13,406 nucleotides of DNA from Bacteroidetes bacterium UBA4009 (lineage in GTDB: Bacteria > Bacteroidota > Bacteroidia > NS11-12g > UBA9320), in NCBI GenBank assembly GCA_002384205.1, contig DGBH01000057.1, forward strand, positions 1 through 13,406. The letters run 5' to 3'. The translations under genes were made by a program, and so were the position numbers. Below are positions 1-13,406 of the stretch, one piece after another. Every line of letters starts with the position of its first letter. The first letter of the stretch is position 1. Below the pieces are notes generated by a model that saw only the letters and a program-made list of their open reading frames with translations, was not told the origin of the DNA and did not search any database.

Positions 1-2
1 TA

Positions 3-230
3 TCTGGTGCGCTTTTTGATCTTGGCGTCTCGTCGCCCCAGCTCGATATGGCTGATCGTGGTTTTTCATATCGCAATTCTGGACCACTTGACATGCGCAT
101 GGATACCAGACAGCAACTGAAGGCTTCGGACGTGGTGAATTCTTGCGACGTAGAACAACTGACACATGTTTTGAGAAATAATGCAGACGAGCGATTTGCT
201 TACCGGATTAGTAAAGCAATTGTTGCTGCT
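3..230 (+). pseudogene. rsmH: Internal fragment of rsmH (mraW), 16S rRNA m4C1402 methyltransferase
   Basis: The translation carries RsmH hallmarks: LFDLGVSSPQLD, then the near-invariant GFSYRNSGPLDMRMDT, then ASDVVN and DERFAYRISKAIVAA, which match the region after the SAM-binding motifs and the start of the inserted helical domain. RsmH methylates N4 of C1402 in 16S rRNA using SAM. Only about 76 residues of a roughly 300-residue enzyme are present: the N-terminus lies off the window, and the C-terminal part, which should continue with a REN/RPI-like stretch, is replaced by OmpA sequence after base 230. The wording (FDLGVSSPQLD, ERFAYRISKAIVAA) resembles actinobacterial RsmH more than Bacteroidetes RsmH. 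Hand-counted GC is 108/230 (47%) against 180/507 (35.5%) for the rest of the frame. It cannot be catalytically complete. Confidence 0.8.
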
Positions 231-737
231 TATTACTACATAGATGATGTGACTGTTTATGAAATGGATGAGGATACACCGTGTGAATGCAATTCTAATG
301 CAGTAGAAGAAGATTATTCGACTTTGATTTACCAAAAACAAATTAACATTGATGAATCGAAAAGCACACTAAAACAAATCGTTGAGGCACAGCAAATATT
401 CTTCGGATTTGGACAAGATGAATTAACATCTCAGTCTAAATTATCTCTTGATGCCATTGCTAAAGTGATGATTGCTAATCCATCTGTTCGACTTCAAATA
501 AACGGACATTCTGATGTTATGGAAGATGAAGTAGGCGCTGAGAAAGCAGAATATTCTAGCATGGACGGTAAGCGAGTAGCAGCTGTTATTGAATATCTGA
601 ATTCAAAAAGTGTTTCTTCAACCCGTTTGATAGCATCGAATCAAGGCTCAGATATTGAATATGCTGAGATTGTAGAGTCTGATGACGAAGAAGTGAAGCA
701 AGCAAAAAATAGAAGAGTTGAGTTTATCCTAAGATAA
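3..737 (+). CDS. Chimeric open frame: rsmH fragment fused in frame to the C-terminal part of an OmpA-family protein (5' partial)
   Basis: The frame is open from base 3; the first ATG (base 48) lies inside the rsmH-like part, so it is probably not a true start. From about base 231 (residue 62, counting the ATG at 48 as 1) the protein changes to a Bacteroidetes OmpA-family protein. The YYYIDDVTV stretch is the last strand of the jelly-roll-like domain that usually precedes the OmpA domain. A short Cys-containing linker (TPCECN, 77-82) follows, then an OmpA_C/MotB-like peptidoglycan-binding domain at about 115-229, with HSD at 154-156 and the terminal NRRVEF at 221-226. The usual NxxLSxxRA helix is replaced by a divergent YSSMDGKRV. 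Native relatives would carry a signal peptide and roughly 200 further N-terminal residues, missing here. Known for the family: non-covalent anchoring of the outer membrane to peptidoglycan. The OmpA domain call is firm; whether the fused protein exists is doubtful. Confidence 0.72.
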   Translation, partial: SGALFDLGVSSPQLDMADRGFSYRNSGPLDMRMDTRQQLKASDVVNSCDVEQLTHVLRNNADERFAYRISKAIVAAYYYIDDVTVYEMDEDTPCECNSNAVEEDYSTLIYQKQINIDESKSTLKQIVEAQQIFFGFGQDELTSQSKLSLDAIAKVMIANPSVRLQINGHSDVMEDEVGAEKAEYSSMDGKRVAAVIEYLNSKSVSSTRLIASNQGSDIEYAEIVESDDEEVKQAKNRRVEFILR

Positions 738-755
738 ATTACATATAATTTCAAG

Positions 756-793
756 AAGCCATTTCGTTTCAATAGAGAGAAATGGCTTTTTTT
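756..793 (+). terminator. Rho-independent terminator after the OmpA-family frame
   Basis: A perfect 10-bp inverted repeat (AAGCCATTTC at 756-765, GAAATGGCTT at 779-788) encloses a 13-base loop, and the distal arm runs into a T run (787-793). It lies 18 bases after the stop codon at 735-737. The T run is on the plus-strand side only, so it suits the plus-strand gene better than the converging maf operon. Confidence 0.88.
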
Positions 794-822
794 ATGCCGA
801 GTATTTTTTTCTGTGATAAGGA

Positions 823-1401
823 TTATCCCCAGTTTTTAAGAACTTGATACAGCTTCTGAACGGGAAGTCCCATGACATTATAATAAGAACCTTCTAGTTT
901 CTCGATAGCCATCATGCCAATCCACTCTTGAACGCCATAAGAACCAGCTTTATCATACGGTTCGTAGTTATCTAAATAGTAATCGATTTCTTCCGCAGAT
1001 AGATTAGCAAAGTACACGTGAGTCGAATCTGAAAAGGAATGGAATTCATTTCGGGTTCCCAAAGCAACGCCGGTAATAACAGTGTGTTTTTGACCTGAAA
1101 GCTTTTGAAGCATTTGTTTGCCGTCTTTCTTGTCTTTTGGTTTTTCGAGTATGGTTTTATCCAAAACGACAACTGTATCACTGCATATGATTAATTCGTC
1201 ATCTTTAGAATTAGAAATCAGAGCTTTCCATTTTTGGGTTGCTACATATTCAGCAATTTTTGGAATAGGCATATTCGAAGGGAAGCTCTCATCAATATCA
1301 GCTACCCGAACTTCAAAGGGTATATCCAATCCAGCCAATAGTTTTTTTCTTCTCGGAGATTGCGAACCTAAAATGATCGTGTGATTCTTGATTACATCCA
1401 T
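823..1401 (-). CDS. maf: Maf-family nucleoside triphosphate pyrophosphatase
   Basis: A 192-residue Maf/HAM1-fold protein that hydrolyses non-canonical or excess nucleoside triphosphates to monophosphate and pyrophosphate in the cytoplasm; close homologues prefer dTTP/UTP. Visible motifs: the N-terminal phosphate-binding GSQSPRRKKLL (12-22), IDESF (36-40), the ICSDTVV segment with catalytic Asp75, EKP (86-88), GQKHTVITGVAL (103-114), DKAGSYGVQ (150-158), and EGSYYNVMGLP (170-180). Length is normal for the family. The ATG at 1401 is chosen because the Maf fold starts immediately after it; a longer frame starting at 1458 would add 19 residues without family character. It overlaps the upstream prenyltransferase gene by 10 bases, implying translational coupling, and is the last gene of the five-gene operon. 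No convincing minus-strand terminator follows. Confidence 0.93.
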   Translation of the reverse strand: MDVIKNHTIILGSQSPRRKKLLAGLDIPFEVRVADIDESFPSNMPIPKIAEYVATQKWKALISNSKDDELIICSDTVVVLDKTILEKPKDKKDGKQMLQKLSGQKHTVITGVALGTRNEFHSFSDSTHVYFANLSAEEIDYYLDNYEPYDKAGSYGVQEWIGMMAIEKLEGSYYNVMGLPVQKLYQVLKNWG

Positions 1402-2378
1402 AGCAAGTACCAATAAAGAGAAGTGATAACTCCGCTGACCATAGCATATTTTACCCATTGGTCCGCCTTTAAAAATCCAGTTTTTGTCGTTGCTCGTATT
1501 GTGAGACCAATTGCTACAAAATCCATAAGTAAGGAAATGATGACTGGCATAAATATCAGTATTTGATCCACTAAACCGAAATCATTCTTAGGTTGATGGA
1601 ATAAAAACAGAACAGTAAACAATACTAATGGAAGAAGTAAAAGTACCACAATCCAAATCTTTGAAACCTTCACGCCGTATTGTATGGGCAAAGTCTTCGC
1701 AGAAATCATTTGATCGCCTTTGATATCTTCTACGTCTTTGATGATTTCTCTTGCAAAGTTATTTACAAAAGCAAAAAAGGCGAGTAGCCATATGAAATAA
1801 CCATGATTAAGCAACGAAATCAGCCAATATTCGAAAGCTGTTGAATATATTTCTGGTTCAATGATATCTACGCTACCTTGAACATAAAAATGGACCCCAC
1901 ATAAAATAGGCACCAAAGCAGTTAGTCCGGCGATTAAAAAATTCCCGATGATAGGTTTCTTCTTCAAAAAGAGACTATACAACCACAGGGCGTTCATCGT
2001 CAATAAATGAATAAAGACATACCAAAAGGTTTCGTAACGCACACTCAAATAAACTGCTATTGCAAAAGCCATAAAGTTCAAGCCAGAATGGATAAGAATA
2101 GCCCAGCGACTATTGATATATTTCCCAATAATGACACGCTTAGGTTTGTTGATCCTGTCTGCTCTCACATCAAAATAATCATTGATAACATTTCCGCCAG
2201 CTGCTATCATCATAGTCGAGAGAACGAGTAAGAAGAAATTCAATTCCTCACCATTTTGCCCTAAAAATTGGACACAGTAAATCTTTTCATACGTCAATAT
2301 AAACAGACGCACACTATACATCGTCAGTGCAATGATGAGTAAGTTAATAGGACGAATGAGTAGGAGGAAGCCTTTCAT
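1392..2378 (-). CDS. UbiA-family membrane prenyltransferase (geranylgeranylglycerol-phosphate geranylgeranyltransferase-like)
   Basis: A 328-residue polytopic inner-membrane protein with about eight or nine hydrophobic segments. Both Asp-rich prenyl-diphosphate/Mg2+ motifs of the UbiA superfamily are present: NDYFDVRAD at 66-74 and KDVEDIKGD at 214-222. UbiA enzymes transfer a polyprenyl group from its diphosphate to an acceptor (quinone ring, haem, chlorophyll or glycerol phosphate). Bacteroidetes members of this type are commonly annotated as geranylgeranylglycerol-phosphate geranylgeranyltransferases, but the acceptor cannot be read from the sequence. There are no quinone or haem pathway neighbours to help. 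Its ATG directly abuts the stop codon of the upstream porE-like gene, and its end overlaps maf by 10 bases, so it is co-transcribed with both. The start is supported by a short charged N-terminus leading straight into the first membrane helix. Confidence 0.88.
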   Translation of the reverse strand: MKGFLLLIRPINLLIIALTMYSVRLFILTYEKIYCVQFLGQNGEELNFFLLVLSTMMIAAGGNVINDYFDVRADRINKPKRVIIGKYINSRWAILIHSGLNFMAFAIAVYLSVRYETFWYVFIHLLTMNALWLYSLFLKKKPIIGNFLIAGLTALVPILCGVHFYVQGSVDIIEPEIYSTAFEYWLISLLNHGYFIWLLAFFAFVNNFAREIIKDVEDIKGDQMISAKTLPIQYGVKVSKIWIVVLLLLPLVLFTVLFLFHQPKNDFGLVDQILIFMPVIISLLMDFVAIGLTIRATTKTGFLKADQWVKYAMVSGVITSLYWYLLWM

Positions 2379-4391
2379 TTATTTAATGATTTTGTATTCC
2401 GTACGTCTGTTTTTTTGATGCGCGACTTCAATCGCTTTTGCGTCAGTAAGTTTAGCTATTTCCGCGTCGGAAACAACATTCTTCGTTTCGCCATATCCTT
2501 TGTAGGACAATCTTGTTTTGTTTAATCCTTTCGCAACGAGGCAATCATATACCGATTGAGCTCTTTCTGTTGATAATTTCATGTTTTCGCCAGCATCTCC
2601 ACGAGTATCGGTATGGCCACCAATTTCAATCTTCAACAACGGATTCGTCGCTAAAAACTCACGCAATTTCTCTAATTCAATGTAGGATTCAGGTCGCAAT
2701 GTGGCTTTGTTTAAGTCATAAAACACATTGTTCAATACAATTGGTTGCGAACTTGAAATTGGAATCAACGGAACATCCATGTGAAAAGCTTCTTGACCAT
2801 CTGGATCTTTCATATCGAAGGTTTGAGAGAAGAAACTATAATTCGGATAACTCACATTCAATGCATATTTCTTGTTGACAGGAAGTGATACCACAAATTC
2901 CCCAGTTAAGCTATCTGCTTCAGAATACACGACTTCTTTTCCATTTTCTAAATCAATCAATTTGAATTTGCCAGGAAGCGGACGTTTTGTATCTGCGTCA
3001 AACACCAACCCTTCAAAATAAATAGTTTTCGTCGGTTTTAGGTGATCAGGCATTGGGAAATAGTAGATGTCTAATCCGCCATAGCCACCTTCGCGATCAC
3101 TTGCAAAAAACCCGATTTCTCCATCAGCGGAAACCATCAACGAGTTTTCATCATATTTTGTGTTTATCGGATAACCAAGGTTAATTGCTTTTCCCCAATT
3201 TCCACTCGCGTCCAATCTGCTCACAAACAAGTCAGAACCGCCCATTCCAGCATGACCTCTCGATCCAAAATACAGCGTTTTCCCATCGGGGTGAATCAAA
3301 ACAGATTCTTCTGCTTCTGGTGTATTAACCGCAGATGGTAACATTTCAGCTCGGGACCATGTTCCATCCGCCTGCATTTTACTCACATAAATATCACCTT
3401 GTTTGGTGCCTTCTCTGCCACGAATTCCTCGAATAAAATACAGGGTTTTACCGTCTGAAGATAAAGAGGGCTGAGTTTCCCAATGAAATGAATTTACTTT
3501 TCCTAAAATGTTTTGAGGATTCGTCCATCTATTTCCTAAACGTTTGGTGTAGAACAAGTCGCAACTACCATAGCCGTTTCTGTTTTCACCATAATAGCCT
3601 TCATATTCCTCGCAGGCCACAAAGATAAGTGATCTTCCATCTGGAGCCAGTGTTGGTGCGCCTTCATTGGCAATAGTATTTATATTGGATGGCATTGGAA
3701 TAGCCGTTTTCCATTTATTGTCTTCACCTAAACATGAAATGTAAAAGTCTTCATGTTGGTTTCCGTTAATCCGATCATCCTTAATTCTTCTTGTGAAGAG
3801 TATCGTTTTTCCATCAACGGTTATAGTTGGGAAATATTCTGGATTAGATGTATTGATTCCAGGACCGATGTTCACCGGGTCAAACTTCACTGGATTCTTC
3901 ATGGCTTCAATGGCAAACAAGTTATTGGCTTGCATAGACATAGCCTTGCTTTGCAATTCAGGATTGGCCATTTGGAACTTCATGAATTGATCTATCCTTT
4001 TGTTGCTTTCCTCAAACTGACTATTTTCGCTCAACAAGTTCGCCAAAAAAAAATACTCGCTTCCTGTTCCCGAAATATTAGGGTTCAGTCTTATGGCTTC
4101 TTCTAAATGATAGATTGCAGGAGCATTTTGACCGATATTTTCATAGAATTCACTTATGGTACCGTGAGCTTCGAAAAAATTAGGTTCTCGATTCAAAGCT
4201 TTTTTAATTAATACTATTCCACCACGGAAATCGGGTCCGCCCGTTTGTGGATCGCGAGCCGCTCGAGGTTGATTGAATCCTTCTTCGAATAATTTGACTG
4301 CTTTCTTGTCAGAAACGGAGTATTTCTGCTGAGCTGCGCCGCACGAAGCGAAAAGAAAGAATGTGAGAGTTATAAAAAATAGGTTTTTCAT
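2379..4391 (-). CDS. porE: PorE-like T9SS outer-membrane lipoprotein (TPR, beta-propeller, CRD, OmpA domain)
   Basis: A 670-residue lipoprotein with a signal peptide ending in the lipobox LFASC (Cys17). Domain order: helical TPR-like repeats at about 30-150; WD40/PD40-like beta-propeller blades at about 185-447, each built round a DGKTLYF-type turn (193-199, 251-257, 313-319, 369-375, 423-429); a carboxypeptidase-regulatory-like beta domain at about 456-545; and a C-terminal OmpA domain at about 550-670, with HTDTRGD at 593-599 and NRRTEYKI at 661-668. This order and length match PorE of Porphyromonas gingivalis, the T9SS part thought to tie the outer-membrane machinery to peptidoglycan. Asp595 and the Arg in the NRR motif are the expected diaminopimelate-binding positions. 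It sits 1 base after queE and abuts the UbiA-family gene. The orthology call is inferred from architecture; a paralogous OmpA/PD40 lipoprotein is the alternative. Confidence 0.82.
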   Translation of the reverse strand: MKNLFFITLTFFLFASCGAAQQKYSVSDKKAVKLFEEGFNQPRAARDPQTGGPDFRGGIVLIKKALNREPNFFEAHGTISEFYENIGQNAPAIYHLEEAIRLNPNISGTGSEYFFLANLLSENSQFEESNKRIDQFMKFQMANPELQSKAMSMQANNLFAIEAMKNPVKFDPVNIGPGINTSNPEYFPTITVDGKTILFTRRIKDDRINGNQHEDFYISCLGEDNKWKTAIPMPSNINTIANEGAPTLAPDGRSLIFVACEEYEGYYGENRNGYGSCDLFYTKRLGNRWTNPQNILGKVNSFHWETQPSLSSDGKTLYFIRGIRGREGTKQGDIYVSKMQADGTWSRAEMLPSAVNTPEAEESVLIHPDGKTLYFGSRGHAGMGGSDLFVSRLDASGNWGKAINLGYPINTKYDENSLMVSADGEIGFFASDREGGYGGLDIYYFPMPDHLKPTKTIYFEGLVFDADTKRPLPGKFKLIDLENGKEVVYSEADSLTGEFVVSLPVNKKYALNVSYPNYSFFSQTFDMKDPDGQEAFHMDVPLIPISSSQPIVLNNVFYDLNKATLRPESYIELEKLREFLATNPLLKIEIGGHTDTRGDAGENMKLSTERAQSVYDCLVAKGLNKTRLSYKGYGETKNVVSDAEIAKLTDAKAIEVAHQKNRRTEYKIIK

Positions 4392-4392
4392 G

Positions 4393-4992
4393 TTATGGTA
4401 TTTGCATGAATTTATGCGTTTGTAGCGATATTTTCCACTTTGGATTCGCTTTTATATAATCAATTATGGGTTGCAAAAATCGGTCCTGTTTTGACCATTC
4501 TGGTTGCAAGAACAGTTCACAATTAGCATTTACTCGAGTTGCATGCGTTTCTGCCCATTCGAAATCGGACGGGTGAGCGATAATCACTTTTAACTCGTTT
4601 GCTTTTGAATAGGCCTCCTCCACAGGTGCTTTGAATTTTTTAGGAGAAAAACAATACCAATCTATTTCTCCTTTTAAAGGATAACATCCTGATGTTTCTA
4701 TGGCAATTTCTTTTCCTTCCTTCTTTAGCTTTTGGGTCAAAAAGGTTAAGTCGTACATCGCTGGTTCGCCACCAGTAATTACCACGAAATCGGCGCTAGT
4801 TTGAAAAACAGGTGAAACAATCTCATTTAAATCCACCAAGGGATGTTTATTGCTATCCCAACTGTCTTTTACATCACACCATACGCAGCCTACGTCACAA
4901 CCACCCAATCTAATAAAAAAGGCAGATTGACCGGTGTACACTCCTTCACCTTGAATAGAGTAGAAATATTCCATCACTGGGAATGCTTTCAT
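4393..4992 (-). CDS. queE: 7-carboxy-7-deazaguanine synthase QueE (radical SAM)
   Basis: A 199-residue radical SAM enzyme converting 6-carboxy-5,6,7,8-tetrahydropterin into 7-carboxy-7-deazaguanine, the committed step towards preQ0 and queuosine in tRNA. Visible motifs: YSIQGEGVYTGQ at 11-22, the cluster-binding CxxxCxxC at Cys32, Cys36 and Cys39, and the SAM-contacting GGEP at 74-77. The C-terminal part has the LQPEWS and SLQTHKFMQIP signatures of QueE. Length is normal. The start overlaps the folD stop by four bases (ATGA), so the two are translationally coupled; the porE-like gene follows 1 base after its stop. Other queuosine genes (queC, queD, queF) are absent from the window, and no preQ1 riboswitch is seen upstream of the operon. 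Confidence 0.96.
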   Translation of the reverse strand: MKAFPVMEYFYSIQGEGVYTGQSAFFIRLGGCDVGCVWCDVKDSWDSNKHPLVDLNEIVSPVFQTSADFVVITGGEPAMYDLTFLTQKLKKEGKEIAIETSGCYPLKGEIDWYCFSPKKFKAPVEEAYSKANELKVIIAHPSDFEWAETHATRVNANCELFLQPEWSKQDRFLQPIIDYIKANPKWKISLQTHKFMQIP

Positions 4993-5870
4993 AAACCTTG
5001 TTTCTTTTTATAGCTTTTAAGCGTGTTGAAAAGCAAACCATATCTAGTCATGGGGCCAACACCTCCTGGCACAGGGGTTATGGCGCTGCATTGTGATTTT
5101 ACCGCGTTATAATCTACATCACCCATAAGCTCATAGCCTTTTTCGTTGTCACTATCTACTCGGGTAATTCCCACATCAATTACTACGGCTCCAGGTTTTA
5201 TCATATCTCCTTTTAAAAACTCCGGAATACCTACCGCTACAATTACAATATCTGCCATTTGGGTATACATGGCAATATCTTTAGTATATCTGTGGCAAAG
5301 GGTTACGGTGCACTCACCAGGATTACCACCGCGGCTCATTAATATGCTCATGGGTCTACCCACTATGTTGCTTCTGCCTATTACTACACAGTGTTTTCCT
5401 TTGGTTTCAATGCCATATTCCTCTAATAATTTAATCACACCAAATGGAGTTGCCGATATATACGTATCCTCATTCTTGGTAAGTTTACCTACACTAATGG
5501 TATGAAAACCATCTACATCTATTTCAGGATTGATTGCTTCCGTAATTTTAGTCGCATCAATATGTTTCGGAAGTGGCAACTGCACAATAAGACCGTCGAT
5601 ATCCGCATTCTCATTAATAGACTGTATTAACTTCTGTAAATCTGCTTCTGAAGTATCTGCAGGAAGCCTATGAACACTTGAGTAGAAACCCACATATTCA
5701 CAGTCTTTCTCCTTACTATTTACGTAAGTTTTGCTTGCGCCATCTTCACCTACCAGTATAGCTGCAAGATGGGGGGATCTTAATCCTTTCGCACGTAGTG
5801 AATCTACTTCGGCTCTAATATCGCCTCTAAGTTTTAATGCGAGGGATTTCCCATCTAAGATTGTTGTCAT
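4989..5870 (-). CDS. folD: Bifunctional methylenetetrahydrofolate dehydrogenase / methenyltetrahydrofolate cyclohydrolase FolD
   Basis: A 293-residue cytoplasmic enzyme interconverting 5,10-methylene-, 5,10-methenyl- and 10-formyl-tetrahydrofolate with NADP+, supplying one-carbon units for purines and fMet-tRNA. Visible: TYVNSKEKDCEYVG at 48-61 with the YxxxK pair Tyr49/Lys53, QLPLPKHID at 97-105, DVDGFH at 118-123, the NADP-binding VIGRSNIVGRPMS at 163-175, and the C-terminal PVPGGVGPMT at 266-275. Length and motifs are complete, so it should be active. It is the first gene of the five-gene minus-strand operon and overlaps queE by four bases. A TATTTTTG box lies 7 bases before its ATG. Methenyl-THF chemistry and pterin-derived queuosine precursors both draw on the GTP-derived pterin pool, a plausible but unproven reason for the folD-queE pairing. 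Confidence 0.97.
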   Translation of the reverse strand: MTTILDGKSLALKLRGDIRAEVDSLRAKGLRSPHLAAILVGEDGASKTYVNSKEKDCEYVGFYSSVHRLPADTSEADLQKLIQSINENADIDGLIVQLPLPKHIDATKITEAINPEIDVDGFHTISVGKLTKNEDTYISATPFGVIKLLEEYGIETKGKHCVVIGRSNIVGRPMSILMSRGGNPGECTVTLCHRYTKDIAMYTQMADIVIVAVGIPEFLKGDMIKPGAVVIDVGITRVDSDNEKGYELMGDVDYNAVKSQCSAITPVPGGVGPMTRYGLLFNTLKSYKKKQGL

Positions 5871-5877
5871 GAGCGGT

Positions 5878-5885
5878 CAAAAATA
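5878..5885 (-). promoter_or_regulatory. Candidate -7 box (TATTTTTG) of the folD operon promoter
   Basis: Read on the minus strand this is TATTTTTG, an exact match to the Bacteroidetes sigma -7 consensus TAnnTTTG, ending 7 bases before the folD start. It would give a very short leader. No TTG is found at the usual 17-22 base spacing, so the call rests on one box. Confidence 0.45.
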
Positions 5886-5895
5886 TAGAATATTA

Positions 5896-5921
5896 TTACC
5901 ATTGAGAAGAGTTGATGGTAA
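5896..5921. promoter_or_regulatory. Inverted repeat upstream of folD, possible operator
   Basis: TTACCAT (5896-5902) and ATGGTAA (5915-5921) form a perfect 7-bp inverted repeat with a 12-base spacer, 26-51 bases upstream of the folD start and beyond the TATTTTTG box, covering the place where a -33 contact would fall. The geometry suits a dimeric repressor. No regulator gene is nearby, and a chance repeat in AT-rich DNA is possible. Confidence 0.35.
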
Positions 5922-5993
5922 CTTAAACATATTTTTGTCAATAATACACCTTGACTTCTCGTATCTAACAAAAAAGGCATTCACTTTTTCATG

Positions 5994-6023
5994 TTGATAT
6001 ACCTGAGAAGATTTATACTTTTG
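5994..6023 (+). promoter_or_regulatory. Bacteroidetes-type promoter for the lipoprotein / S8 peptidase pair
   Basis: TTG at 5994-5996 and TACTTTTG at 6016-6023 are separated by 19 bases. This fits both parts of the Bacteroidetes primary-sigma promoter (TTG near -33, TAnnTTTG near -7). Transcription should begin near 6028-6030, leaving a leader of about 22 bases before the ATG at 6052. Confidence 0.78.
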
Positions 6024-6051
6024 AACTATTCATTGCTTCGTTAAAAACTAT

Positions 6052-6729
6052 ATGATATTAAGATATCTTAAATACCAATTAATTAGTGCATGTGTTGTTA
6101 TGATGAGCTGCAACTCTATAGAAGAGCCCATAGCTATGCCTGGCACAAGCTATTACCCGCTTGAAATGGGCAAATTTATTACCTATTCTGTAACCGAATA
6201 CTCCCATGACGCATTTCGAAAAGAAACGGACACCACATACTTTTGGCAAAAAGAGTTGTTAGAAGATACTTTTACGGATATTTCAGGCTCTTTAGTATAT
6301 AAAATGGCATTAAGCATATCCAAAGATTCTGGCAAAAATTGGAGATTTGATTCTTATGCAATCGTAGAAAAAGATAGCAATTCTGCTATTCGAACTGAGA
6401 ACAATACCCGTAAGACTATATTATCTTTTCCCTTTCGTGAACTGAAGACATGGGACGTAAATGCACTTAACAATCAAGATTTACAATTGGCCAAAATAAA
6501 GAATATAGAAAAAAGTATGACTACTATTTTAGGAATGCAATTCGCTAAAAGTGTTCAGCTAGAACTAAGCAACCAAGTAGACCCTATTTTAACGAATATA
6601 GAAAACGAAGTGTATGCAGAAGGTGTAGGCCTTATAGAACGAAAGTATGCATACATTGAAACTCAACCGGGCAAGTATAAAAGTGGAATGGAATATGTTA
6701 AGACTATTTATGAAACGAATTGGGAGTAG
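6052..6729 (+). CDS. Predicted lipoprotein of unknown function
   Basis: A 225-residue protein with a lipoprotein signal peptide: a basic N-terminus, a hydrophobic stretch at about 9-18, and a lipobox-like MMSC with Cys20 as the probable lipidation site. Next comes YYPLEMGKFITYSVTEYSHD, a beginning typical of uncharacterised Bacteroidetes surface lipoproteins that fold as beta-rich modules. No catalytic motif or named domain could be recognised. It follows a good promoter. An A-rich stretch (GTTAAAAACTAT) precedes the ATG instead of a Shine-Dalgarno site, as is usual in this phylum. Its 3' end overlaps the S8 peptidase start by 20 bases, so the two are very likely co-expressed. A role as a partner or anchor of the peptidase is conceivable from position only. 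Confidence 0.8.
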   Translation: MILRYLKYQLISACVVMMSCNSIEEPIAMPGTSYYPLEMGKFITYSVTEYSHDAFRKETDTTYFWQKELLEDTFTDISGSLVYKMALSISKDSGKNWRFDSYAIVEKDSNSAIRTENNTRKTILSFPFRELKTWDVNALNNQDLQLAKIKNIEKSMTTILGMQFAKSVQLELSNQVDPILTNIENEVYAEGVGLIERKYAYIETQPGKYKSGMEYVKTIYETNWE

Positions 6730-8395
6730 CATTCTCATACTCATTTTAGCAACTGTGACAGGTAAAGGTCTATTGGCACAAAACACCAATGCCTACTTCA
6801 TACAATTTTCAGATAAGGTAAGTGAATCAAATATACGCGCTACTTTAAGTGAAAAAGCACTCGAAAGACGCACCAAATTTAATCTAAGTATCGATTCGTA
6901 CGATATGCCTGTTTCGGCTAATTACATTTCGGTAATACTCCAAGATACAACCATTCGATTGCGCTATGCGCTAAAATGGCATAATGCAATAGTGGTAAAT
7001 TGCACCAAAACTTCATTGCATTACTTAACGGATTTGCCGTTTGTACGAGCTGTTAAATTTGTGGGTGAAACCCAAACTTTAAAATCTTCTGAAGGCCCAC
7101 TTTTTTATGCTCCACGACTAGTCTTAAAGGATGCCACGATGAAGGAAAATGGTTATACCAAAGAAGATTATGGCGTTTCCTATGCACAGAATAAACAAAT
7201 TGGGGTTCCTTATTTACACCGTTTAGGTTATACGGGGAAGGGTATAGACGTGGCTGTTTTTGACGCTGGTTTTAAAAATTTAAATGCCATACCTGGTTTT
7301 TTAAAACATCAAGCCAACGATAGGCTAACATTTTGCTATGATGTTGCGCAGTTAGATAACCTTCTTACCGATGCCGACAATCATGGTACTGCAGTAACTT
7401 CCTGCCTAGGAGCTTATCAATTAGGCCATTATGTGGGATCTGCCCCATTAGCTAACCTGTTCCTTTTTCGCACAGAATACGGAGCAACCGAATCGCCATT
7501 AGAGGAGTTAAACTGGTGTAAAGCTGCCGAACTATCTGATAGTGCCGGAGTAGATATGATTACTTCATCACTCGGGTATTTTAGGTTTGATGACACCACA
7601 CTTAGTTATAGACATAGTGATTTAGATGGCTTTACATCCTACATTAGCTTAGGCGCTAGAATAGCCGTCGAAAAGGGAATTCTTGTGCTGAATAGTGCAG
7701 GAAATGAAGGCGATAATCTGTGGCGAAAAATAGGTACTCCCGCAGATGTCGCCACGGTGCTTACCATAGGTGCCGCTGGTATTGATAATCAGGTAGGCCG
7801 TTTTAGCAGTCAAGGATACAATGCCAAAGGAGATATTAAACCCGATGTCGTAGCTTGTGGTGTGCTGACCTATGTTGGCAGCCCAAATGGCAATTACTAT
7901 CAAGGATATGGAACCAGTTATGCTACTCCCGTTGCTGCCGGAGGAGTAGCCTGTTTACTTCAGGCATTTCCCGGACTCACCCCTTTACAAATCAATCAAC
8001 TCATTAGATCAACCGCATCACAATCACAAAACCCCGATTCTATTATGGGTTACGGTGTTGCACAATTTGACGCAGCGTATAATCTACAGCAATTGAAAAC
8101 AGCGAAACACGTTGTTTCTGGGATTGTAAAAATAGATCCTAACGGACTAATTATCTTTAAAGTACCAAAAGACGTGGTACATTTTGATGTATATAGCGTG
8201 GTGAAATTTTTAGGTGTTTTACCGTATAAGAAACATTTGTCTAAAGGCACGTTAAAAGGCGAACAAGAAGTATTTCCAATACCATTCAACCAACGAGCAA
8301 TTTGCAATCAGAAATACACCATTAGGCTTAGCACCAAATCAACATTGGTAATGCGAGAAATCTCTAATGATTGTCTGATCTTATGTGAAGATTAG
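6710..8395 (+). CDS. Secreted S8 family (subtilisin-like) serine peptidase
   Basis: A 561-residue exported peptidase. The ATG at 6710 is chosen because it begins a clean signal peptide (MKRIG, then a hydrophobic core, cleavage near LLAQ); an earlier in-frame ATG at 6647 would bury it. Residues about 27-125 look like the N-terminal prodomain of Bacteroidetes S8 enzymes (ALERRTKF, DMPVSANYI, LPFVRAVKFV). The catalytic triad is complete: Asp185 in VFDAGF, His225 in DNHGTAV, Ser403 in GTSYATPVAAG, with oxyanion-hole Asn332 in SAGNEG. The tail after about residue 465 is beta-rich but lacks a canonical T9SS sorting domain: it has VFPIPF rather than YPNPF and ends with two Cys (ILCED). It overlaps the upstream lipoprotein gene by 20 bases and converges on the giant cargo gene with an 11-base gap. 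Active peptidase is well supported; its location (periplasm, surface or medium) is not. Confidence 0.92.
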   Translation: MKRIGSSILILILATVTGKGLLAQNTNAYFIQFSDKVSESNIRATLSEKALERRTKFNLSIDSYDMPVSANYISVILQDTTIRLRYALKWHNAIVVNCTKTSLHYLTDLPFVRAVKFVGETQTLKSSEGPLFYAPRLVLKDATMKENGYTKEDYGVSYAQNKQIGVPYLHRLGYTGKGIDVAVFDAGFKNLNAIPGFLKHQANDRLTFCYDVAQLDNLLTDADNHGTAVTSCLGAYQLGHYVGSAPLANLFLFRTEYGATESPLEELNWCKAAELSDSAGVDMITSSLGYFRFDDTTLSYRHSDLDGFTSYISLGARIAVEKGILVLNSAGNEGDNLWRKIGTPADVATVLTIGAAGIDNQVGRFSSQGYNAKGDIKPDVVACGVLTYVGSPNGNYYQGYGTSYATPVAAGGVACLLQAFPGLTPLQINQLIRSTASQSQNPDSIMGYGVAQFDAAYNLQQLKTAKHVVSGIVKIDPNGLIIFKVPKDVVHFDVYSVVKFLGVLPYKKHLSKGTLKGEQEVFPIPFNQRAICNQKYTIRLSTKSTLVMREISNDCLILCED

Positions 8396-8406
8396 CCGCT
8401 TATTTT

Positions 8407-11400
8407 CTAGTCGTTTTTAAGAATTGGAATACGCTCAACATGCGCATCATAATACACCTCTAACATGTACTCGCCTTTGGCAAGCGGAAGTTCTACCTCA
8501 ACGTTTTGCGTATTCATTTTCATATTCATTACTTCTTGACCTGTAATGCTCAATACGCGTACGTTTTTAATCAACTCTTTGCTTTCTATGTGAATGGAGT
8601 GCGTAAATGGATTTGGATAAATCTTAGTAATTATAGGAATTACTACTACTACCTCTGCCCCACTTACGAATGTGATGTAAGTACTAGCCGAATCGTTGTT
8701 TATAAGTTGATCAGCGGTATGCGAAACACTAAATGCTAGATCTAGTATTCCCTTTTTATCGTAGGTTAAAGTACTATCAAAGTTAACTTGAATAGACTCA
8801 CCAGCGCTCACACTAATAACCTGCGTGCTCTCATAAACTGTAGAAGTTTCATCAAAAGCCCTGCAGTGTACGGTGATGTCGCTCAGGTTGTTAATACCCA
8901 TGTTTGCAATGGTTACAGAAGGTTTAATTAGCGTATTTTTAGGAAATTCCTGTCCAATTGAGGGAAAATTAACCTTTACTATAGCAACATCATTGCGGCG
9001 TATCACCATATAATTGGTAGTCAACTCATTATTCGCTACATTGTCATCTGCACTAAGTATTTCAGAACTAAATAAATAGTCTCCAAACATACCAGCACTA
9101 TAAATTATGGAAGATGAAAGAGTGGCTAAAAAGTTGGGATTAAGCTGGTTTATGGATAGTGTATCTAGGTACACAGGAATAGCTGCACTATTTACGAGTG
9201 CAATAGCTATTCGTACGTTAGACATTGTATCTAGCCCATAATTAGTAACCTGAATGCTTGGCTTAAGTGACTCATTCAATTCTAAAGTATCCTTATTATG
9301 GGGTAGTAAATGAGCACTAATACCCAAATCTTGAGAAAATCGAGTACTATAGGTGGTGTAAATGGTATCGTTATAGCCTGGCTCATGTTCTAGCGGCCAA
9401 TTATTAATTATGTTCACATAGTAATCACCCAAATCATCAAATTCCAATGGGCTAAAACTAATTAACTTAGACTCCGAAGTATCTAAGGAAACGCTAAGCG
9501 AATCCAAATAGACACGTGAATTTAAGTTATTGATGATCTCACAAGTTACTTTGGCATCTACAATGGGATTAAAACCATTATTGCGTATTTCTAGTAAAGG
9601 TGAACTGGCTGTAGTATTTACAGGTATTACTCCTTTTGGAGTCTCCAAACGCACTAGCATAAGATCATTACCTGTAACTACAGAGAATGGTATACGCATG
9701 GTATCATTCACGCGCCATTGGTCTTTTAGTATGTAAGCATTTGCCTCAAATACATATTCTCCCAAAATATTAAGTGCTATTTCCTTAAAAATAATCTGAC
9801 TAATACTAATTGCAGCCAAGGACCTAAATGCTGTATCTCGATAAATTATTATACCATCAGTGTTTGTAATTTTTACGACAATAAGAATAGAATCTTGGCG
9901 GTTTAATCCTTCATTTTTAATGTTGAGGTAAGGTTTTATTTTATTGTTAAAGGGGTATTTAATAGCCTTGGGTGTAGTAACATTTTGGATAGCAATATCA
10001 TCTATTTTTCTTGCAATTAAAGTGACCTGGGCGGTATCATTTGCAGGAAAACTATCATTGGCTAATATCGTATAGGCTCTGAATAAAATACTGCCGGGTT
10101 CAGTAAGTTTCATGTATTTAAACGTTTTTATGACATTTAAATTAGCTCCCAGTGAAATGATAAACTCATCGCTATCGAGAATTTTGCCTTTTGAATTTAA
10201 CAATTCACCTCTTACTCGGAAATTATTTATGGCCGTTGCACCGTAATTATCTACTCTAATCGTTGGCTGAAACGTATCTCTATTGAGGTCAAATATTTCT
10301 CCGTTAGCAGGAAAGTATATTCGATTCACCCCTACATCTCGATTCTTTATCAAATCAAATACAGATGCTTTACTATTGTTATCGAGAATACTATCTGTCG
10401 ATAGAAAAGCTGTTACCTTGGCGGTAAATTGACCTAAATTGTATAAGCTAAACTTACCAAAATTAACCGTTGCTGTATCATCCGCATTCAATGAAATAAT
10501 CTGATCTTTTGAAAATACTTGTTGAGCAAATCTATTTAGAATCTGCATTCTAACGATAAAGCTACCTTGATTCTGAAAACCATAGTTAATGATTTTCGCC
10601 TTTAGAGGCAGTGAATCTGTAAGACTATATTCAATCGTATCGCCATTTGCCGGACTGATAATATTAAATACAGCAATATCATTAGCCACTTGTAAACGTG
10701 GTTGGATATTAAAATTAAAGTTAAAACCTGGAGAAAACGGAGTCCAAAGAGAATCACCTGCAGGAGCTGTAAAATAAAAAGAATGAGGCCTTACCGGCGT
10801 TTCGTATTGAAAACTAAAACCCACGTTTGTATTGGTAGTTTGTCTTATCCCTACATAATAGCCCCCGCTTACCTGCACCTTGGGTAATACCGGCATAATG
10901 AAGGTACCGTTGGACGTTAAGGATGTATCAGACATAAATAATACCGTACCTGGTAATTGACCTGGACCATCATCGTTCCACACTCCTAATTGGAACTCGC
11001 GACCAACTGCAGTAAAATCAACTTTTATTTGATTTATAAAAGAAGTTCCCAATACATAAAATTTAGCTAAAAAATCTCCAGTTGATCCCGTAAAACCAAT
11101 ACCACCTGAACTGCCTGCAAAAGGATCTGCGTGAGAGTAAATATTGTAACTTACAACACTTTCCTTCGATATAGTATTATTGTTTAACGAACTATCTAAC
11201 TCCGCCGTAATTAAAAGAGAATCTGTACCCAATAACTTAGGCTGGTAGGTATTGAAATAAACAAATTTCTCTTCAAACGGATCAATAGAAGCAACGGTTA
11301 TGGTATCGTTATAGATATTGGCTCCACTTACCTTTAGAAATAATTTTTTATTGGTAACTGTACTCTTACCGTAATTAGCAATAACTACTTTAAGACTATC

Positions 11401-12129
11401 AGGCTGACGCATAAGCAAGGGAACAGTGCCCAATGCATAGGCTCTTTTAACCGCCAAATCGTGGTTATACCTAGGGTAAAATAGTGAAAGAGTAGGCTTA
11501 ATAATAGAACTAAAATTAGTCAAACTGTCTAAGCCCGCCACACTAGAACCATACCTATATTTGTTCTCATTGGGCGAGACAAAACCGCTGACAGTGGAAG
11601 AATTTTCACAAAACCAATCGATGTATCCGTCCTGCTTAGTCGTTTGTTGATATTCTACTAAAACCTCAAGATTTATAGCATTACCTGAGGTGTCCCATGT
11701 ATATTGATTTACTTGATTAAACTTAAAAAGTACATCTGAAGGTGAAGGATTTATCAAACCATTCGGATCTCCACTATACACTAGAGTCATCCCGTTACGC
11801 GCTTCTGCCAGCCAGTTAAGAGCGCCCGTACCAAAGTCAGATTGCGAGGTAGATTTTAGATATATTTTGAGTTGGCCGGTGCCTCTCATGGTATCAAATG
11901 AGTTATGGCTGAATGCTAGCGCAGCTAATTGATCACCATGTGTTAAATCACCCAGCGTAGCTGCGGGATAAATCATAGCAAAACGACTGTAATAATTGGC
12001 AGAAGTATCTGTTCTAAGCGGCCCAAAATTGGTGTTGGAGAATCCTCCACTCCCTATTTGGGTATATTGTGCAGATGACCATAAGAGCATCAGCGTAAAG
12101 ACCGCAGTGTATAAACTTCGTTGTAGCAT
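8407..12129 (-). CDS. Giant T9SS-exported surface protein with tandem Ig-like (CARDB/APHP-type) repeats
   Basis: A 1240-residue protein with a signal peptide (MLQRSLYTAVFTLMLLWSSAQ). Residues about 40-220 form a beta module found at the start of many T9SS cargoes (YYSRFAMIYPA; WDTSGNAINLEVLVEY at 145-160). A first Ig-like unit covers about 223-330 (HDLAVKRAYA). A separate beta module covers about 335-480 (VWNDDGPGQLPGT, GGYYVGIRQ), resembling the fold often seen in cleaved-adhesin-type proteins. Six contiguous Ig-like repeats follow at 484-1158, each opening with D[ILV]xxxx and carrying an NYG/NEG/NNG/NMG turn, the CARDB/APHP pattern. Residues about 1167-1240 are a type A T9SS C-terminal domain: KIYPNPF, VRVLSITGQEV, LPLAKGEYMLEVY. 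The domain should be cleaved after export. No enzymatic motif is visible; an adhesive or structural role is inferred. Its ATG follows a TATTTTTG box. Confidence 0.93.
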   Translation of the reverse strand: MLQRSLYTAVFTLMLLWSSAQYTQIGSGGFSNTNFGPLRTDTSANYYSRFAMIYPAATLGDLTHGDQLAALAFSHNSFDTMRGTGQLKIYLKSTSQSDFGTGALNWLAEARNGMTLVYSGDPNGLINPSPSDVLFKFNQVNQYTWDTSGNAINLEVLVEYQQTTKQDGYIDWFCENSSTVSGFVSPNENKYRYGSSVAGLDSLTNFSSIIKPTLSLFYPRYNHDLAVKRAYALGTVPLLMRQPDSLKVVIANYGKSTVTNKKLFLKVSGANIYNDTITVASIDPFEEKFVYFNTYQPKLLGTDSLLITAELDSSLNNNTISKESVVSYNIYSHADPFAGSSGGIGFTGSTGDFLAKFYVLGTSFINQIKVDFTAVGREFQLGVWNDDGPGQLPGTVLFMSDTSLTSNGTFIMPVLPKVQVSGGYYVGIRQTTNTNVGFSFQYETPVRPHSFYFTAPAGDSLWTPFSPGFNFNFNIQPRLQVANDIAVFNIISPANGDTIEYSLTDSLPLKAKIINYGFQNQGSFIVRMQILNRFAQQVFSKDQIISLNADDTATVNFGKFSLYNLGQFTAKVTAFLSTDSILDNNSKASVFDLIKNRDVGVNRIYFPANGEIFDLNRDTFQPTIRVDNYGATAINNFRVRGELLNSKGKILDSDEFIISLGANLNVIKTFKYMKLTEPGSILFRAYTILANDSFPANDTAQVTLIARKIDDIAIQNVTTPKAIKYPFNNKIKPYLNIKNEGLNRQDSILIVVKITNTDGIIIYRDTAFRSLAAISISQIIFKEIALNILGEYVFEANAYILKDQWRVNDTMRIPFSVVTGNDLMLVRLETPKGVIPVNTTASSPLLEIRNNGFNPIVDAKVTCEIINNLNSRVYLDSLSVSLDTSESKLISFSPLEFDDLGDYYVNIINNWPLEHEPGYNDTIYTTYSTRFSQDLGISAHLLPHNKDTLELNESLKPSIQVTNYGLDTMSNVRIAIALVNSAAIPVYLDTLSINQLNPNFLATLSSSIIYSAGMFGDYLFSSEILSADDNVANNELTTNYMVIRRNDVAIVKVNFPSIGQEFPKNTLIKPSVTIANMGINNLSDITVHCRAFDETSTVYESTQVISVSAGESIQVNFDSTLTYDKKGILDLAFSVSHTADQLINNDSASTYITFVSGAEVVVVIPIITKIYPNPFTHSIHIESKELIKNVRVLSITGQEVMNMKMNTQNVEVELPLAKGEYMLEVYYDAHVERIPILKND
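8410..8631 (-). other. T9SS type A C-terminal sorting domain coding segment
   Basis: It encodes residues about 1167-1239 of the giant surface protein. Motifs in order: IYPNPF (motif B region), a VRVLSITGQEV strand, LAKGEYMLEVY (motif D, GxY) and a basic-poor VERIPILK end (motif E region). This is the signal recognised by T9SS for crossing the outer membrane. Confidence 0.92.
8656..10680 (-). repeat. Six tandem Ig-like repeat units within the giant surface protein
   Basis: Units begin at residues 484, 598, 711, 822, 934 and 1047, giving spacings of 114, 113, 111, 112 and 113 residues. In the window the units lie at 10339-10680, 10000-10338, 9667-9999, 9331-9666, 8992-9330 and 8656-8991. Conserved positions are an opening Asp, a PxNYG/NNG-type turn about 30-35 residues later, an inner strand ending in a LGxY/DLGDY-like element about 80 residues in, and an N/D-rich end (NDTA, VNDT, YNDT, ANNE, INND). 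The copies are diverged at DNA level, so this is an old duplication. Confidence 0.85.
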
Positions 12130-12140
12130 TCTCGAGCAAT

Positions 12141-12148
12141 CAAAAATA
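12141..12148 (-). promoter_or_regulatory. Candidate -7 box (TATTTTTG) for the giant surface protein gene
   Basis: On the minus strand the site reads TATTTTTG, an exact TAnnTTTG match ending 11 bases before the ATG at 12129. A TTG complement (12179-12181) lies 30 bases upstream, wider than the usual spacer, so the -33 element is not convincing. The same octamer stands 7 bases before folD. Confidence 0.45.
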
Positions 12149-12285
12149 CATCTTTCAACGAATTATACTGATTAAAACCAATTAATAAGCCTAATTTTCG
12201 AGCTAAATATGATGAAAAATAGGTTTTATTCCTTTTGTGTTATATCACCCTCAATAAACCCTTGCAAAAAAACACAATAACAAAC

Positions 12286-13406
12286 ATGCATACACATACC
12301 AACGATCTCATACATGAATCCAGTCCTTACCTCTTACAACATGCACACAATCCAGTAGATTGGCATGCTTGGAACATTGATAATCTATCAGAAGCAAAAC
12401 ATCTTGATAAACCCATACTCATCAGTATTGGGTATAGCAGTTGTCATTGGTGCCACGTAATGGAGCATGAAAGTTTTGAAAATGATGCCATTGCAGCTTA
12501 TATGAACGAAAACTTTTACTGCATAAAAGTAGATAGAGAAGAACGTCCAGATGTAGATCAAATCTATATGACTGCAGCCCATATTATATCTGGAAACGGA
12601 GGTTGGCCGCTCAATTGCTTTGCACTTCCAGACAGCAAACCCTTTCATGCAGGGACCTATTACCCCGCCGCAGGTTGGTTAAAATTATTACAAACCGTAC
12701 ATGATCAATACCAGCAACATCGCGAAAAATTGAATGATTATGCCACCCGACTAACCAAAGGAATAAGGCTACAAGAAACTGCCATAAGCGATAATCCAAC
12801 AGAAAAACTGGATGCAAAAGAGATCGTAAAAACAGTGGAAAACTGGAAGACAAGTTGGGATATGACAGAAGGAGGAATGAATGGCGCTCCCAAATTTCCT
12901 ATGCCCAGTAATCTTCATTTCCTGATGGATTATACGCATCAATTTACAGATACATACACTGATTCTTTTATTCAGCTCACCTTAGAAAAAATGGCCTATG
13001 GAGGTATTTTTGACCAGCTAGCGGGTGGTTTTTCACGTTACAGCGTAGACGCCCTGTGGAAAGCACCACACTTTGAAAAAATGCTTTATGACAATGCTCA
13101 ACTACTTACCATATATGCCAAAGCATATAAAAAATACAATGATCCTCTCTACCTTGAAATTCTAACGAAAACGACGGAATGGCTCGTGCATGAAATGAGA
13201 GACGCTTCAGGGCTTTTTTACGCAGCATTAGATGCAGATAGCGAAGGTGAAGAAGGAAAGTTTTATGTGTGGAAAACCAAAGAAGTACTTGAATTACTAG
13301 GCGAAGACTATGAGCTAGCTCGTATATACTATCAAGTAGATGGTAAAGGAATGTGGGAACACGGTAATAACATATTGCTACGCAACCATCATCCTAGTGA
13401 AATTGC
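12286..13406 (+). CDS. DUF255 / YyaL-type thioredoxin-domain protein (3' partial)
   Basis: The frame is open from the ATG at 12286 to the window end: 373 codons, about half of the usual 650-700 residues. Residues 1-160 are the DUF255 thioredoxin-like domain: [15 protein letters not shown] at 12-26, the CHWCH active-site-like motif at 53-57, EERPDVD at 85-91, GGWPLN at 105-110 and AGTYYP at about 117-122. Then begins the (alpha/alpha)6-barrel, N-acylglucosamine 2-epimerase-like part: GGFSRYSVD at 247-255, [10 protein letters not shown] at 261-270 and [14 protein letters not shown] at 316-329. The family is widespread (human SPATA20, Bacillus YyaL); its biochemical activity is not firmly established, and the two Cys suggest redox or metal chemistry. 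It is transcribed divergently from the giant surface protein gene. There is no Shine-Dalgarno site; an A-rich leader precedes the start. The stop codon lies beyond the window. Confidence 0.95.

Follow-up and report, generated by a model that had tools for sequence, protein, structure and literature searches.

In the passages of the GUNC paper drawn on here, misassembly into chimeric contigs is named as a source of error in MAGs, one that is relatively rare compared with misbinning (PMC8201837). The same passages describe estimators based on marker genes as less sensitive to contamination that is non-redundant (PMC8201837). Figures taken from a benchmark with short reads give 22.15 chimeric contigs per genome for megahit versus 2.63 for SPAdes (PMC11261854).

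The window, i.e. the whole stretch of DNA analysed here, comprises bases 1 to 13406 of contig C148, which is 17583 bases long, so that base 1 of the window is a contig end. The MAG to which the contig was assigned has a size of 2.18 Mb in 196 contigs, and is 91.45% complete with 1.2% contamination. Along the window, the nearest relative changes abruptly from an actinobacterial locus (L140) to a Flavobacteriales contig (L031) and from there to a contig of the MAG's own genus (L126). We conclude that C148 very probably joins DNA from three bacteria, and that the RsmH::OmpA frame at its end is the product of misassembly or of a chimeric library molecule. The features are as follows, with segment and junction names used throughout.

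1..229, plus strand: segment A, piece from within an actinobacterial rsmH gene, read in frame from base 3 and truncated by the contig end
214..229, plus strand: junction 1, stretch where the two homologies overlap; each parent encodes AI(V/I)AA here, and the frame is the same (alignments with L031 and L140)
214..737, plus strand: 3′ part of an OmpA-family gene, corresponding to residues 219-393 of a 393-aa protein (P0122, L031)
214..4854 (right edge within 4837-4890), no strand assigned: segment B, UBA2040-like Flavobacteriales DNA (collinearity with L031, then QueE similarity), with the ompA 3′ part, maf, ubiA, a PD40-OmpA gene and the queE 3′ part (Pfam)
4393..4992, minus strand: junction 2, hybrid queE (7-carboxy-7-deazaguanine synthase; QueE comparison and DNA alignments)
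4837..13406, no strand assigned: segment C, DNA from the genus to which the MAG belongs, continuing past the window (collinearity with G004 and G001), with the queE 5′ part, folD, an S8 peptidase gene, a Por-tail protein gene and a DUF255 thioredoxin gene (Pfam)

Positions 3-737 form a single open frame of 244 amino acids plus a stop codon, and the 5′ end is open. The original prediction described one uninterrupted frame in which about 76 methyltransferase residues are followed by an OmpA part, and the frame (76 RsmH residues in 3-230) as well as the Pfam matches bear this out. PF01795 (RsmH/MraW) covers residues 2-76 (E 4.4e-26), and PF00691, covering residues 133-237 (E 8.5e-07), identifies an OmpA domain. 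The fall in GC content, which had been counted by hand as 47% to 35.5%, was reproduced, with values of 46.96% for positions 1-230 and 35.5% for 231-737. Elsewhere in the window, 138 of the 12946 overlapping 230-base windows are equally or more GC-rich (highest value 49.57%); the GC step alone is unusual and not unique. A jelly-roll strand had also been proposed in front of the OmpA domain. This proposal found no support, as Pfam (E <= 0.001) detects nothing ahead of the OmpA region in the intact relative P0122, a result that does not disprove the fold.

The rsmH product is the 16S rRNA cytosine-1402 N4-methyltransferase. The first part of the frame resembles the RsmH/MraW family in the Pfam match of residues 2-76, and differs from it in its extent: the contig end truncates it on one side and the join on the other, leaving roughly a quarter of the profile. 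The frame holds positions 95-169 of the 309 profile positions, and the SAM-dependent methyltransferase domain is incomplete (Pfam). For the assignment to a lineage, 397 genomes were searched, a draw from a larger order, namely that of the marine actinobacterial MAG MedAcidi-G1, and 378 of them contain a match to the RsmH part. The protein of G228 is 93% identical, and the next value among the matches listed is 75%. The corresponding G228 locus, L140, has 84.3% DNA identity over window 1-229 and diverges thereafter, in agreement with the predicted actinobacterial origin of this half. In the protein search, the 8000 candidates sharing most words were scored, and the best 120 of 7995 matches were listed. 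The best eight (P0002-P0009) are RsmH-family proteins of 306-344 aa with 82-92% identity, and two of the three that are named, P0006 and P0009, are labelled “Actinobacteria bacterium”. The MAG has a complete rsmH of its own on contig C91. With an identity of 45% to the fragment, this gene is too distant for the fragment to be a second, or decayed, copy of it, and that reading was rejected. The 3.2-kb actinobacterial rsmH locus matches the MAG nowhere except at window 1-229.

The OmpA half had been predicted to stem from Bacteroidetes, and it is indeed collinear at 90% with a contig of Flavobacteriales bacterium UBA2040 (L031, DDBE01000074.1; 89.6% over window 214-4479). That contig ends at window 4479; from 4480 up to the second join, the assignment to segment B is by QueE protein similarity only. 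In L031, ompA is whole (4347-5528), with a URO-D gene (hemE) and a gene for uracil-DNA glycosylase in front of it; the 5 kb upstream of ompA in UBA2040 has no other match in the MAG. At the protein level, 98 of 157 candidates matched the OmpA part at E <= 0.001, the more distant relatives being labelled Crocinitomicaceae and Flavobacteriales. The best match, P0122, is an intact 393-aa protein without an RsmH part. The OmpA half is like P0122 in its 99% identity over all 168 residues, with P0122 residues 219-393 aligning to window 210-734, and is unlike it in that the N-terminal 218 residues of the 393-aa relatives are absent from the frame. These residues of P0122 presumably include a signal peptide, as judged by eye. 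An OmpA-domain match to this part was found in all 40 genomes of a set consisting of the MAG and 39 relatives, and outside the window its identity does not exceed 38% among the matches listed for that set.

The join between the two halves had been placed at about 230, on a short stretch shared by both genes. An overlap of the two homologies is present, whereas a point join at 230/231 is not: OmpA homology begins at 214 in the DNA and at 210 in the protein, RsmH homology ends at 229, and the two DNA alignments thus overlap by 16 bases. We compared six RsmH and four OmpA proteins, taken mostly from the top of the lists. At the join, P0122 reads EAIVAAYYY (...KAEAIVAAYYYIDD), the RsmH proteins P0002, P0005 and P0006 as well as that of G228 read ...SKAIIAARP, and P0003, P0008 and P0009 read ...SKAIIASRP, while the window reads ...SKAIVAAYYYIDD. 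Over positions 214-229, the window has one mismatch with L031 and three with L140. Because the similarity to L031 starts at 214 and that to L140 extends to 229, the crossover lies within these ~16 bases. The two parents encode almost the same five residues here and in an identical frame, so that the join leaves an open frame resembling a fusion protein, and each half appears to be cut exactly at the join.

Searched separately, a check proposed in the original prediction, the two halves have their best matches in different lineages. The same fusion was sought in independent genomes and was not found among the matches listed; no protein with both domains (precomputed Pfam) occurs among the 98 matches of the OmpA part and the best 120 of 7995 matches of the RsmH part, and no RsmH domain was detected in the three shortest OmpA-part matches, which were scanned separately. 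A single-family match over the full length was sought as well, by comparing the whole frame with genome contigs (best 80 of 259 loci; records very near the window's own were left out), where L031 matches the OmpA part. Two loci aligned almost end to end, L065 with query residues 2-243 and L074 with 2-240, and were rejected as fusions, being ordinary, full-length RsmH frames whose alignment ran on.

It had to be considered that everything after base 230 is native to the MAG. This was rejected, since the OmpA part lacks a close relative in the genus, in contrast to FolD at 90%. FolD (4989-5870) was found in 19 of 20 genomes, with identities of 89-90% in G001 and G004. With the OmpA part foreign and FolD native, the search led to a second join inside the window, absent from the original prediction, which sequence comparison would place at about 4855-4890. 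From 4837 to 13406, the window is collinear at 91.6% with contig C65 of G004 (L126) and at 83.7% with G001 (L127), and both alignments stop at 4837, inside queE. Beyond the window, three pieces of contig positions 13000-17583 match G004 at 93-97%, and the tail also has N bases.

The gene at this join owes its name queE to the names of the listed relatives, while Pfam gives Radical_SAM. For the comparison, we used seven of the 119 other proteins listed, mostly from the top (the list held the best 120 of 8000). QueE residues 1-34 come from the MAG's genus, with 33 of 34 identical to G004 versus 18-22 of 34 for the seven segment-B-type proteins, and residues 47-199 come from the segment-B lineage: over residues 101-199, 98 of 99 are identical to P0222 versus 52 of 99 to G004. 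G004 and five of the seven segment-B-type proteins agree throughout residues 35-46, and the crossover falls within this conserved stretch, which equals window 4855-4890. The hybrid QueE is itself a cluster representative (P0220) in the searched protein database; its one contig, at 17583 bases, is as long as C148.

The surroundings of the join were compared with both lineages. On the side of segment C, the G004-like continuation that would be expected sits on another contig of the MAG, C68, where it is broken off at base 1, and the ~4.16 kb of G004 between segment C and C68 have no match in the MAG. Base 1 of C68 corresponds to L126 position 6473. The ~4.16 kb of G004 contain the rest of queE, a homogentisate-dioxygenase-like gene, a TPR gene and, by eye, part of an apparent thrS. 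On the side of segment B, the end of L031 matches queE residues 172-199 at 96%. Five pairs of OmpA and QueE relatives have equally long longest contigs (P0127/P0225, 13768; P0125/P0229, 228166; P0128/P0232, 45954; P0146/P0280, 51729; P0137/P0286, 8465), from which each pair would lie on one contig. Such linkage is consistent with ompA and queE lying near each other in another lineage, as they do in L031.

Two further genes of segment C were noted. The 1240-aa protein encoded at 8407-12129 on the minus strand has a Por secretion C-terminal sorting domain and is 93% identical in G004 and 86% in G001. A 225-aa protein without a Pfam match is encoded at 6052-6729 on the plus strand, in a frame that, by the listed coordinates, runs into the beginning of the S8 peptidase frame (6647-8395, plus strand). 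Its identity drops fast among relatives of the same genus, with values of 86%, 60%, 41%, and 25%.

Three other explanations were weighed. The DNA might derive from a real strain-level recombinant, i.e. a population that acquired ~4.6 kb from another Flavobacteriales lineage through homologous recombination at queE, whence the hybrid QueE, and actinobacterial DNA at the far end by an illegitimate join at AIVAA. Join 2 does connect two homologous genes, which is what real recombination would produce, and both frames remain open. Against this, two events with two donors, one of them from another phylum, would be needed within 4.7 kb, one of the events leaves an rsmH remnant of no more than ~0.2 kb at the end of the contig, and no such fusion occurs among the matches listed in the protein searches of both halves and in the contig scan. 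In addition, the RsmH piece has lost both ends and the OmpA part its first 218 residues; with both truncated, neither product is likely to work. We therefore regard the recombinant population as very unlikely, both as a scenario of events and as a description of the strain. Even less credence, close to none, is given to a functional RsmH::OmpA fusion protein, for which the one open frame without a stop speaks. It was rejected because both parts are truncated (RsmH profile positions 95-169 of 309; OmpA protein without residues 1-218) and because no independent copy was found, by precomputed Pfam domains, among the 98 matches of the OmpA part and the best 120 of 7995 matches of the RsmH part. 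Moreover, the RsmH family acts in the cytoplasm and the OmpA family in the envelope.

The remaining alternative is that segment B is native to the MAG, that the UBA2040 contig was misbinned, and that only the rsmH scrap is foreign. In its favour, a single UBA2040 contig contains the matches to the window, if a short match within the rsmH of UBA2040 itself is set aside. However, the same-genus genome G004 has different genes beyond queE, and what follows in G004 is found in the MAG on C68. The switch of lineage within queE also argues against a native segment B, and the five OmpA/QueE pairs fit linkage in another lineage. On this evidence, a native segment B is extremely unlikely.

The explanation as an artefact accounts for the combination of three sources, changes at stretches that the parents would share and a ~0.2-kb scrap at a contig end, which is the pattern of misassembly or of a chimeric library molecule. 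The original prediction had favoured an assembly or amplification chimera of two organisms. The chimera is supported by the separate taxonomy of the halves, intact and unfused relatives of both, the complete native rsmH elsewhere and the overlap of the homologies at join 1, all of which were, like the three sources and the collinearity, observed directly. The number of two organisms did not hold, as the sources number three and the OmpA part, too, is foreign to the genome into which it was binned. C148 would consist of ~0.2 kb of actinobacterial rsmH at the end, ~4.6 kb of UBA2040-like Flavobacteriales DNA and ~12.7 kb from the MAG's own genus. Both joins would be situated at short coding stretches common to two genomes, AI(V/I)AA in rsmH/ompA and GCVWCDVKDSWD in queE. 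The joining step would have occurred in the library or in the assembler rather than in a cell, and the true parents would be identical across the overlap.

Several observations count against an artefact. Join 2 connects homologous genes, L031 and L140 do not have 16 identical bases in common at join 1, and the QueE cluster P0220 has eight member sequences, which may have other origins. Furthermore, with relatives of 84-92% DNA identity standing in for the exact parents, the shared stretches set the resolution to which the crossovers are located. Even a fully shared stretch of 16-17 bases would be shorter than usual assembler k-mers, so that at join 1 we lean towards a chimeric molecule or read as at least as likely as k-mer collapse. 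Join 2, with its longer conserved stretch, would be a natural assembler error.

The relevance of the result lies in data hygiene. The contig gives rise to two hybrid proteins, RsmH::OmpA and a two-lineage QueE, and database entries of this kind may give rise to mistaken reports of fused or transferred genes. By its listed contamination of 1.2%, the MAG appears clean despite the mosaic contig. In this respect, C148 resembles the chimeric contigs as described in the passages of the GUNC paper used here (PMC8201837), i.e. fragments of several sources within one contig of a MAG with low marker-gene contamination. It differs from that description in that three sources are combined in C148 and in that both joins lie within open reading frames.
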